Below, piece by piece: positions 40,544 through 43,035 of a stretch of DNA of 64,000 nucleotides. This DNA comes from Psychromonas sp. psych-6C06 (GTDB lineage Bacteria > Pseudomonadota > Gammaproteobacteria > Enterobacterales > Psychromonadaceae). Every line of letters begins with the position of its first letter. Position 1 is the first letter of the stretch. The stretch spans positions 1-64,000 of the forward strand of contig NZ_PIZM01000009.1 in assembly GCF_002835465.1 (NCBI RefSeq), read 5' to 3'. The notes below the pieces were generated by a model. That model had not been told where the DNA came from. It made no database searches and worked only from the letters and a program-made list of their open reading frames with translations. The translations under genes and the position numbers were made by a program.

Positions 40544-40637
40544 TACCAAAAGAATTAAAAAGCTTATCTCTTCGTTGAATTCTCATAAAGAGAAAAACAG
40601 TTACGTTAAATTTCGCCTTGAACTAAGTCACTTTTTT
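40544..40637 (+). repeat. Truncated miniature element (subfamily B)
   Basis: It begins TACCAAAAGAATT with TAA just before it, and shares CTTATCTCTTCGTTGAA and the AACTAAGTCA-type segments with the copy at 55.5 kb. The far end is missing. It is probably a decayed copy. Confidence 0.6.
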
Positions 40638-40722
40638 ACACCAACCAGATTGATGTGCGATAACAAACACAATGTAGTATTTGCCTTGTATAAGCAGTCA
40701 AATAAGACTTTATCTTGTATTA

Positions 40723-40881
40723 TACAAAATCAACTAAATAACTGATCAATCTTACTGGTTAAAAGAAGCTATTTCAGGGTTAAAAATTTCGTAAAGGGAA
40801 CAACCATTTGCATCAATTTTCGCTTTGAACTAACTCCTTTTTCCTGCGTAATATTTGCTCACTATACTAACGGAATTGGAA
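40723..40881 (+). mobile_element. Miniature inverted-repeat element, copy 4
   Basis: A 159-bp copy in the same orientation as copy 1, with slightly decayed ends (TACAAAATCA and GAATTGGAA) and TTA on both sides (40720-40722 and 40882-40884). Decayed termini suggest that it is older than copies 1-3. Confidence 0.75.
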
Positions 40882-40945
40882 TTATTTGCTATTGACCTAT
40901 TTAATTGCAGCATATAACCACAGGGTTGTTTTAAAATTAAGTTGA

Positions 40946-41134
40946 GAGATCAACAGGCCCTAGGCTTCTTCTTCAATACCATTGATATCCTTCTAAAATC
41001 TGTATATATCGCTCTATTGTGACTATCTGTTTATTATATTTAGCTACTGATAGTAAATTTATTTCAATTTTTATAAGCATGTACTGTCAATTGCTACCTA
41101 TTTTGATAAAGATCTTTTTTGTTTAAAAAGTGGC
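40946..41134. other. Gene-free stretch between miniature element copy 4 and the first CsrB-like RNA
   Basis: It opens with a short fragment of the second repeat family (GATCAACAGGCCCTAG) that is also found directly upstream of the second CsrB-like gene. The rest is AT-rich with no coding signal. Confidence 0.45.
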
Positions 41135-41152
41135 TGTAAGAGATCGACCATT
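41135..41152 (+). promoter_or_regulatory. GacA/UvrY-type upstream site of CsrB-like RNA 1
   Basis: TGTAAGAGATCGACCATT carries the left half and centre of the known response-regulator site (TGTAAG-N6-CTTACA type) found upstream of csrB genes. It starts 174 bases before the predicted -10 hexamer. The same 18 bases recur at the second locus at the same distance. Confidence 0.7.
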
Positions 41153-41320
41153 GATCAATAAGGATATCGTGTTTAAAAAGAAATATTATCTACCCTACAT
41201 TTAAATGGTTTTGGTTTAAGTTGTTGATTTTTATGTGTTTGTTTGTTTTGATGTTTTTGTGAATTACTTTTAACTGTTTTTGTATCGTTAATTTTCTTGT
41301 TAACGGCGTATTATCTATTT

Positions 41321-41734
41321 CGTAAACACGACGTCGCTTACAGGATGTAGGTAACATCGGATTACATTGTCAGGATGACAAGTTGGACATTCTCAGGATG
41401 AGAAGTGATAGAACAGGATGTTTTATCGTTAAGGACAACAAAAGGAACAAACTACAGGATGTAGTTAAGGAACACCTTTCAGGATGAAGGGAATATAATA
41501 ACTAGGACGGTTATTATTAGTCAGGATGACAAGTGAAGGACACCTCCTAAGGAAAGGGAGATGATTGATAAGCAGGATGTTTATCTAATACGGATGTAAA
41601 AATGGAAGTGCCCAATGGATTGGGAAGTGGACGCCTAGATAGGCATAGTCAAAAGGATGCGAAGCAGGGAGCACCAACTATCACGGATTAAGATAGAGTG
41701 ACTAAATTAAGGGCAGCTTCGGCTGCCCTTTTCA
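41321..41734 (+). ncRNA. csrB: CsrB-family regulatory RNA, copy 1
   Basis: This RNA of about 410 nt is predicted to sequester the translational regulator CsrA. More than 20 GGA motifs are present, eight in the exact CAGGATG form typical of CsrB. Several sit in loops of perfect hairpins, e.g. TTCTC-AGGAT-GAGAA (41390-41404) and AACTAC-AGGAT-GTAGTT (41450-41466). A TATTAT -10 element is at 41309-41314, and the RNA ends in a strong GGGCAGC/GCTGCCC terminator. No protein is encoded. The start is estimated from the -10. Confidence 0.9.
41711..41733 (+). terminator. Terminator of CsrB-like RNA 1
   Basis: Stem GGGCAGC/GCTGCCC with a stable TTCG tetraloop and a T tract. Confidence 0.93.
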
Positions 41735-41883
41735 TTTCCTGTAAAATAATTTTCTTTTCATATAAATACCTTCTCTTATTAATAACTCTTTTTACAAAAC
41801 TTATTTTATTGTACCTTGTAAGCTTTAATAATAATTTTCATTGTTATCCCACCTACTCATTTATAATTATGATTTATAGGTTG

Positions 41884-41986
41884 AAATTTTCGCAAAGGGA
41901 ACACCATTCACGTCAAATTTCGCCTGGGGTTAAGTTACTTTTCATGCGTAAAATTTAGTTCATATACTTCATTCGATCTGTATCAT
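41884..41986 (+). repeat. Degenerate 3' part of a subfamily-B miniature element
   Basis: Segments such as TTTCGCAAAGGGA, AATTTCGCC, GGTTAAGTTAC and ATTCGATCTG follow the order of the 55.5 kb element. The terminal TTGGTA is mutated and no target duplication remains. Confidence 0.5.
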
Positions 41987-42029
41987 TTTTAAAATTCCAT
42001 TGGCATAAACAATTCAATTGGTTGTTTTA

Positions 42030-42339
42030 TGAATGTAGCTTGTTCATTCTTAGAGGAATTTCTTCTAACGGATAGCAAAACGTCTTTTCGTTTTGCGTAC
42101 TGTTTGACGTAATCAAATAGAGCAAGGAACAGAGCCGTATTCAACCCGTCGGGCAACATTTTCAGACCATTTTTACTGCGTTTTCGCCTGCTGATGTGGA
42201 ATAACCACACTTCATAGGTTCTGCCTTGTATAAAAGCAAAATGGCTTTTTATTTTGTATTGCATGGTATTGACGAAGTCATTACAGCAATAGCCAACAAA
42301 TTGTTGCCAAAACAAACTCGAAAGATCAACAGGCCCTAG
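42030..42339 (-). repeat. Second dispersed repeat family, long copy
   Basis: About 310 bases that share both flanks with the shorter copy at 16.5 kb. An open frame of 108 codons crosses it on the minus strand, but the sister copy lacks its middle and no homology to a known protein is recognised. It ends in GATCAACAGGCCCTAG, the sequence also seen before CsrB-like RNA 1. It may derive from an insertion sequence. Confidence 0.6.
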
Positions 42340-42380
42340 TGTTAGCTAGATCACAACTAATTTTTAGCCTCAAAATAACG

Positions 42381-42398
42381 TGTAAGAGATCGACCATT
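42381..42398 (+). promoter_or_regulatory. GacA/UvrY-type upstream site of CsrB-like RNA 2
   Basis: Identical 18-mer to the site before copy 1, here followed by ACA so that TGTAA...TTACA forms an imperfect palindrome. Distance to the TATTAT element is again 174 bases. Confidence 0.72.
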
Positions 42399-42566
42399 AC
42401 AAGCTAGGGTTATCGTGCTAATTTAAAATTAATTTCACTATAGAAAAAAAACAAATGAATTTAAGTTATTGTTTTATTTGTGAATATTGTTTTTTGATGT
42501 TATTTAGACCGAACATTATCTGCTTATGAGCAAATATCTTATTGTGTAAACGGGTATTATTTATTC

Positions 42567-42988
42567 CGTAGAGAGGAGATACGGTTTTACAGGATGTAAA
42601 GCGATAACGAATCAAATTTTTACAAGTCAGGATGACAAGTTGGACATTCTCAGGATGAGAAGTGATAGAACAGGATGTTTTATCGTTAAGGACAACAAAG
42701 GAACAAACTACAGGATGTAGTTAAGGAACACCTTTCAGGATGAAGGGAATATAATAACTAGGATGGTTATTATTAGTCAGGATGACAAGTGAAGGACACC
42801 TCCTAAGGAAAGGGAGATGATTGATAAACATGACGTTTATCTTATACGGATGTATAAAAGGAAGAACCCAAAGGAATGGGAAGTGGATGCCTTGAAGGCA
42901 ATTAGTCAAACGGATGTAAGCAGGGAGCATCAACTATCACGGATTGGATAGAGTGACTAAAATTAGGGCAGCTTAGGCTGCCCTTTCC
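42567..42988 (+). ncRNA. csrB: CsrB-family regulatory RNA, copy 2
   Basis: A near-duplicate of copy 1. The block from the second CAGGATG to the AAAGGGAGATGATTGATAA segment is almost identical (one base deleted, few substitutions), while the 5' and 3' thirds diverge. One hairpin has changed from GCAGGATGT to ACATGACGT, losing a GGA while keeping its ATAAAC/GTTTAT stem. A TATTAT -10 is at 42555-42560. It is likely a CsrA-binding RNA like copy 1. Confidence 0.9.
42965..42988 (+). terminator. Terminator of CsrB-like RNA 2
   Basis: Stem AGGGCAGC/GCTGCCCT with a TTAG loop and a short T run. Confidence 0.92.
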
Positions 42989-43035
42989 TTTGCCTGAAAG
43001 AAAATAATTTCCCCTATAAACACCTCTTTAATACT

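Follow-up and report, generated by a model that had tools for sequence, protein, structure and literature searches.

Tandem csrB units with conserved promoter geometry and a probably converted centre in Psychromonas sp. psych-6C06

We studied two neighbouring csrB-type RNA genes in a 64,000-nt stretch of the Psychromonas sp. psych-6C06 genome (contig NZ_PIZM01000009.1, positions 1 to 64,000; the window hereafter). They are very probably separate CsrB sponge units driven by UvrY and IHF, derived from an old tandem duplication after which the centre of copy 2 was converted by copy 1. In the proposed mechanism, phosphorylated UvrY would act from an 18-mer far upstream, IHF would bend the DNA about 82 nt past the start of this box, and UvrY would in this way meet RNA polymerase at the TATTAT -10 element. 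The CsrB-family RNAs made by the two transcription units would bind CsrA and so keep it sequestered, each RNA stopping at its own hairpin. Promoter and RNA would have been duplicated together before several species of the genus split; promoter, leader and 3' end would have diverged since then, and copy 1 would have overwritten the CsrA-binding centre of copy 2 by gene conversion, the outcome being one and the same sponge under two promoters that can be tuned independently.

Both units could be read directly from the sequence, in tandem as the original prediction had placed them and about 1.25 kb apart (Table 1). Each has the same 18-mer exactly 174 nt ahead of TATTAT. The prediction had called this 18-mer a GacA/UvrY-type site, which holds for its left half, in agreement with the UvrY palindrome in print; GACCATT, the right half, deviates. 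The 3.72 Mb genome had two exact copies of the 18-mer, one with a single mismatch, likewise preceding a GGA-rich RNA (see below), and four with three mismatches. A backwards control gave no match at up to three mismatches in the same 3.72 Mb, so the occurrence of the 18-mer is beyond chance. The IHF-like site of csrB1, which fits what we take to be the IHF consensus (YAANNNNTTGATW), was found at the equivalent position in most of the mapped genus copies. Alignment of the two copies also bore out the near-identical centres and diverged ends: 203/206 positions were identical in the common tract, 29/47 in the leader (41321-41368), 110/128 in the 3' part (41576-41705) and 114/185 in the promoter.

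Table 1 Features of the two csrB units and their upstream repeats in the window
Feature	Positions	Strand	Remarks
Repeats D2-D9-D7 upstream of unit 1	40578..40963	+	equal order before unit 2 (41885-42339)
UvrY-type box of csrB1, TGTAAGAGATCGACCATT	41135..41152	+	exact; only 2 exact copies in genome
IHF-like site of csrB1, TAAGTTGTTGATT	41217..41229	+	82 nt past box start; fits YAANNNNTTGATW
-10-like TATTAT of csrB1	41309..41314	+	174 nt past box start
csrB1 RNA	41321..41734	+	start inferred from -10, end from terminator
csrB1 tract common with csrB2	41369..41575	+	203/206 identical; likely gene-conversion donor
csrB1 terminator-like hairpin	41709..41730	+	
UvrY-type box of csrB2	42381..42398	+	18-mer identical to csrB1 box
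IHF-like site of csrB2, TAAGTTATTGTTT	42462..42474	+	1 mismatch; 81 nt past box start
-10-like TATTAT of csrB2	42555..42560	+	174 nt past box start
csrB2 RNA	42567..42988	+	start inferred
csrB2 tract with copy-1-type bases	42626..42831	+	likely converted; 5/6 diagnostic sites type 1
csrB2 terminator-like hairpin	42965..42984	+	weak T run

Other readings of the region were considered. The pair is unlikely to be an assembly duplication: the two copies are not the same (93% identity in the body, 68% in the promoter), and other genomes also have neighbouring units in this gene neighbourhood. A protein-coding reading found no support, as Pfam gave nothing above its cut-off for the three ORFs of at least 60 aa; the best sign was an HTH match for one of them, at 19.2 bits below threshold level. 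The D2-D9-D7 repeats ahead of both units may be left over from the unit that was duplicated, although D2 is found at dispersed sites. D7 (GATCAACAGGCCCTAG), found with up to two mismatches in this window only among the fetched genus loci, was considered as a second regulatory element but is not proposed as one, lying 187 nt from one box and 57 nt from the other. D2 (TTTCGYAAAGGGAACAACCATTTGC...) was seen in the window at 40578-40842, 41885-41942, 37599 (-) and 21657 (-), and also in loci L180 and L189; it could be an element of the MITE or REP-like type in this genus.

Comparison with the Rfam CsrB covariance model (RF00018), the check put forward with the original prediction, gave matches over the whole model (positions 1-356) for both copies: 66.4 bits for csrB1 (E 6.3e-17, over 41432-41740) and 67.3 bits for csrB2 (E 3.5e-17, over 42628-42994). 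These scores are just below the Rfam gathering score of 71, so the copies are unlisted at the standard cut-off; a scan of the window at that score gave no RF00018 hit, and the copies were recovered in E-value mode. Same-locus relatives surpass the gathering score, e.g., the three of genome G009 with 82.6, 79.2 and 77.1 bits, and 12 of the 24 genomes of the genus set, which we take as Psychromonas and which includes the window genome (G000), had one or more matches above this score. The SDR protein encoded beside the pair was 75% identical to that of Psychromonas sp. Urea-02u-13, and at most 50% to those at the rest of 80 loci. These loci served solely to identify the nearest relative; at the Urea-02u-13 locus (L043) the contig stops shortly past the SDR gene. 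Each RNA contained 26 GGA motifs, as compared with a maximum of 22 in 500 dinucleotide shuffles of each; AGGAT was in excess too, and 12 (csrB1) and 11 (csrB2) of the GGA motifs fell in hairpin loops of the minimum free energy (MFE) fold. Both units are intergenic, with their own promoter-like elements and terminator-like hairpin and with no supported protein-coding reading. This evidence supports the assignment of the two loci to the CsrB family.

The promoter geometry was mapped for 53 boxes, 45 before csrB-type stretches and eight before a second type of RNA located near yecH (see below). These boxes came from genus loci fetched for having RF00018 or box matches, and one of the 45 csrB-type stretches (in G006) was without an RF00018 match. 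The csrB of G017, with no box within three substitutions, and the third csrB of the window genome are outside the set. The distance from box to -10 was 173-177 nt in 40 of the 45 csrB promoters; the other five showed 156, 160 and 162 nt or, in two cases, no recognised -10. The 174-nt spacing pointed out in the original prediction is thus a promoter rule of the genus and not particular to the pair. With loose IHF-like and -10 patterns devised for this analysis, an IHF-like core was located 81-83 nt past the box start in 43/53 promoters by first match and 49/53 by any match; 300 shuffles, counting any match, gave a mean of 1.4 and a maximum of 7. Both elements were found in 42 csrB promoters, and in 36 of these the IHF-like site was 90-94 nt from the -10. 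Two csrB promoters (G010 and G004) were about one helical turn shorter, with 70 nt between box and IHF-like site and 92 and 90 nt, respectively, from there to the -10. The yecH-type promoters had 182-185 nt from box to -10 (8/8) and 101-103 nt from IHF-like site to -10 (7/8), about one turn longer.

The right half GACCATT was exact in 33 of the 45 genus csrB boxes and one or two bases off in 12. As many as 43/45 were within two substitutions of a degenerate asymmetric pattern, a count that is partly circular since the boxes were found with this same pattern. No palindromic box with up to three substitutions was found upstream of any genus csrB, and the one palindromic match with three substitutions, in L192, was away from csrB. 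Both flavours of the box are present in other families. The arrays of family f10 (G056 and G076) mix them between units, with TGTGAGATATCTCTTACA in the first and TGTGAGAGATCGACCATT in the second, so that one UvrY probably reads both. A genus-wide box scan with two mismatches was noisy (61 matches against 14 in a backwards control), and boxes were therefore counted only beside RNAs. A conserved box-like sequence, TGTAATAGATCAGCCATT, was observed at one site each in G008, G019 and G020 (L132, L139 and L146) and in G014 and G018, on contigs with no listed csrB match; it may be a further UvrY target or a conserved coding stretch.

Genes for the corresponding pathway were present in the window genome: a single csrA; a uvrY-like response regulator gene with a LuxR-type DNA-binding domain, directly before uvrC, presumably as in E. 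coli; and a barA-like histidine kinase gene with an sCache_4 domain. The latter adjoins a gene that we take to be rlmD-like, which we assume to be the barA neighbourhood of E. coli as well. Among 14 control genomes, sCache_4 gave a match in E. coli only. Together with the fixed places of box, IHF-like site and -10, these genes make the predicted common BarA/UvrY control of both copies well supported, and the best reading of the pair is that of UvrY-driven CsrA sponges, whose redundancy is plausible.

Two other views of how the copies work were weighed. It is highly improbable that a single copy is active and the other is decaying or mainly a read-through product. The weak T run of the csrB2 terminator would fit this view, as would the levels in Shewanella oneidensis, where csrB2 is reported at 3- to 10-fold above csrB1 (PMC3171408); however, no element is missing from either window copy (box, IHF-like site, -10, GGA hairpins, terminator hairpin), and genomes G013 and G016 also possess both lineages. 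It is more likely, though still somewhat less likely than not, that the copies respond differently, through different secondary inputs, instead of being simply redundant. Their promoters are 62-68% identical, depending on the method, the third csrB (C9:83593) combines a degenerate box with a distance of 175 nt, and csrB1 of Vibrio tasmaniensis is described as VarA-independent despite its VarA site (PMC6262261); against this, box, IHF position and -10 distance are equal in the two window copies.

The trees suggested that the duplication is old. In the body tree, copy 1 of the window grouped with its counterparts in two genomes (G000_1+G013_1+G016a_1, support 100/98) and copy 2 with G013_2, G016b_1 and the G009 copies (88/85); the G016 copies sit on separate contigs. 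The promoter tree joined G000_2, G009_2/3, G013_2 and G016b_1 (98/95) and left G000_1 outside the pair G013_1+G016a_1; this tree is weak near its root. The duplication thus probably predates the divergence of these species. Diagnostic sites were those with one base common to the copy-1 orthologues and a different base common to the copy-2 orthologues. Copy 2 of the window had the type 1 base at 5/6 such sites in 41382-41571 and at 5/42 resolved sites elsewhere (Fisher p = 8e-4, a nominal value, as the tract was picked after the identity pattern was seen; the orthologues came from two genomes and the tract had six sites). Because copy-1-type bases concentrate in the tract, the centre of copy 2 looks overwritten by copy 1, with gene conversion as the putative cause.

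The alternative is that no conversion took place, the centres being alike through strong selection alone or through a recent duplication. CsrA-binding hairpins are constrained, the bodies of the within-genome pairs measured are 77-99% alike, and the tract differs little between genomes (88-97%), all of which would fit. We nevertheless consider it unlikely: in its leader and 3' part each copy comes closest to the G013/G016 orthologues, so the duplication looks old; the tract of the window copies is 99% alike, as against 90-97% to those same orthologues; copy 2 bears copy-1-type diagnostic bases there; and the pair of G002 has bodies 99% and promoters 69% identical, its nearest body in another genome being at 90%. 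Homogenisation also seems to have been repeated, since the G002 pair and copies 1 and 2 of G009 (3' part 127/127; promoter 46% in the multiple alignment or 66% pairwise) both combine alike RNA parts with diverged promoters.

Across the genus the csrB neighbourhood is mnmE-(porin)-csrB-SDR-pabA. At least two units were found there in 10 of the 24 genomes (2-4 units): two in G000, G002, G008, G013 (2.5 kb apart), G015, G019, G020 and G023, three in G009, and four boxes, with three units having a 3' anchor, in G022. Eleven genomes had one unit, and in G007, G011 and G012 no csrB unit was seen at the mnmE-porin/SDR-pabA neighbourhood; several of the fetched stretches show one side of it, e.g., those of G004, G013, G016 and G020. 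In G011 two contigs end in csrB matches of equal score, which suggests an assembly break at a csrB array. A scan of 119 genomes gave an RF00018 match in 66. From these genomes 20 loci of 20 genomes outside the genus, in seven families (f2, f6, f10, f11, f12, f15 and f20), were chosen, non-randomly, for neighbouring hits. All 20 had at least two GGA-rich stretches, and in 16 a box preceded every unit (in L211, five stretches make up three units); L204, L205, L206 and L220 had at least one unit without a scanned box, and in L204 boxes with an altered right half were visible by eye. A terminator-like hairpin closed 42 of the 50 units. G032 had five units, in which two adjoining 696-nt stretches were identical at 696/696 positions.

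The original prediction had multiple Csr RNAs usually at separated loci, a view that the data do not bear out: neighbouring csrB units are frequent in the order, and neighbours are in print for Shewanella, Aliivibrio salmonicida and Pseudomonas (rsmX), so that neighbouring csrB genes with UvrY boxes are already known. In E. coli, by contrast, csrB and csrC are separate genes. Like the window pair, csrB1 and csrB2 of S. oneidensis share one locus with a UvrY box before each; they are transcribed separately and are >100-fold lower in barA or uvrY mutants, and the two csrB genes of S. putrefaciens CN-32 are said to be adjacent (PMC3171408). Unlike the window pair, the MR-1 genes have a transposase gene between them, and the box cited there is the palindromic TGTAAGN6CTTACA, whereas the window box has a divergent right half (PMC3171408). 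The csrB of E. coli has an 18-nt UvrY repeat centred at -183/-182 and an IHF site between repeat and promoter, the same far-upstream arrangement as in the window; the right half of its repeat is, in contrast, palindromic (PMC4682653). In A. salmonicida csrB3 adjoins csrB2, explained as a duplication and comparable to the neighbouring copies described here, whereas the other copies of Vibrio csrB1-4 are at different synteny groups (PMC6262261). Pseudomonas rsmX-1 and rsmX-2 are tandem duplicated, GacA-dependent sponge RNAs that differ from the window pair in being ~110 nt long and 75-81% identical (PMC7911923).

Two further Csr-type RNAs were found in the window genome. The third csrB (C9:83593-83899; L004:3594-3900) lies 41 kb further downstream on the same contig, flanked by a LysR-type and a trhO-like gene, and scores 64.1 bits with RF00018, below the gathering score. 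Its 21 GGA motifs exceed a maximum of 18 in 500 shuffles, and 10 of them fall in MFE hairpin loops. Its box is degenerate (TGTGCGAATATCGCCATT) and its distance to the -10 is kept at 175 nt, which makes it a candidate for weak UvrY control. A fluoride riboswitch match is located at L004:7477-7543 (-), with 55.7 bits (cut-off 34).

The fourth RNA has the one-mismatch box at C5:44427 (L038:1501), 184 nt ahead of TATACT; the GGA-rich stretch that comes next is 531 nt long and has a strong terminator, the whole spanning L038:1501-2226, i.e., G000:C5:44427-45152. It is flanked by genes that, from sequence likeness, we take to be ydbL-like and yecH-like. The RNA contains 29 GGA motifs (maximum of 24 in 300 dinucleotide shuffles). 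Relatives were found by DNA search in 9 of the 24 genus genomes, own genome included. These yecH-type RNAs have a UvrY-type box, an IHF-like site and a terminator, and GGA was above the shuffle maximum in 7/7 measured, by one in G009 (28 vs 27); the eighth (G001), in which the script found no terminator, is outside this count. The RNA of the window genome had no RF00018 match at E up to 1, and it is therefore called Csr-like and not a member of CsrB; two relatives had weak matches of 27.1 and 22.4 bits. A model of the 3' part built from seven copies (R1) matched 10 of the 24 genus genomes at 100 bits or more, own included; among them were G001, G003 and G011, none of which was used in the model, and all ten had a box within three substitutions of the pattern. 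Outside the genus, 23 matches to R1 were of full length and had E values no worse than 1e-8. Twelve of these are in genomes searched with RF00018, where 11 fall on places also listed for RF00018; the remaining one (G104:C13) is absent from the RF00018 rows listed. Matches covering only about positions 120-187 of the model resemble terminator hairpins and were left out as RNAs. The coincidence of R1 and RF00018 places supports the yecH-type RNA as Csr-like and probably CsrB-derived. It may be likened, by description and not by sequence, to Pf1-Pf3 of Pseudoalteromonas, which are reported as GGA-rich Csr RNAs found by GGA motifs, promoter and terminator; several per genome occur there too, as separate intergenic RNAs in distinction to the tandem pair (PMC11882849).

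Taken together, we lean slightly towards a wider reading in which the Csr sponges of this group evolve as tandem arrays in concert, gene conversion keeping the CsrA-binding bodies alike as the promoters diverge. In this reading a promoter ruler of whole helical turns (box to IHF 82 or 70 nt, IHF to -10 92 or 102 nt) would also drive a second Csr-like RNA of ~390-550 nt, near yecH and invisible to Rfam. If true, copy number and input wiring could shift without altering the sponge. Tandem arrays with a fixed UvrY-IHF-polymerase geometry would then be a frequent way of making multi-copy CsrA sponges, and the promoters whose spacing naturally differs by about one helical turn would bear on how UvrY activates from 180 bp away. 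The Rfam cut-off misses Csr-type RNAs in the genus, so that sponge dosage is undercounted. A search of the open-access literature found no paper on tandem csrB in Psychromonas; it also found no report of conversion between csrB copies, of helical-turn spacing in csrB promoters or of the yecH-type RNA, which for these three does not prove absence. To the tandem csrB genes already known, this analysis adds the pattern suggestive of conversion, the fixed ruler of the promoters and a fourth RNA that is not annotated.

Some Csr RNAs of the genus were lengthened, seemingly through copies of internal hairpin modules (L178, L168, L174, L170 and L200). The long csrB bodies measured 828 nt in G019b, with 16 CAGGATG motifs, 748 nt in G008b and 649 nt in G015b; a 90-nt module was doubled in G013_2, and the yecH-type RNA of G001 contained a repeated module.
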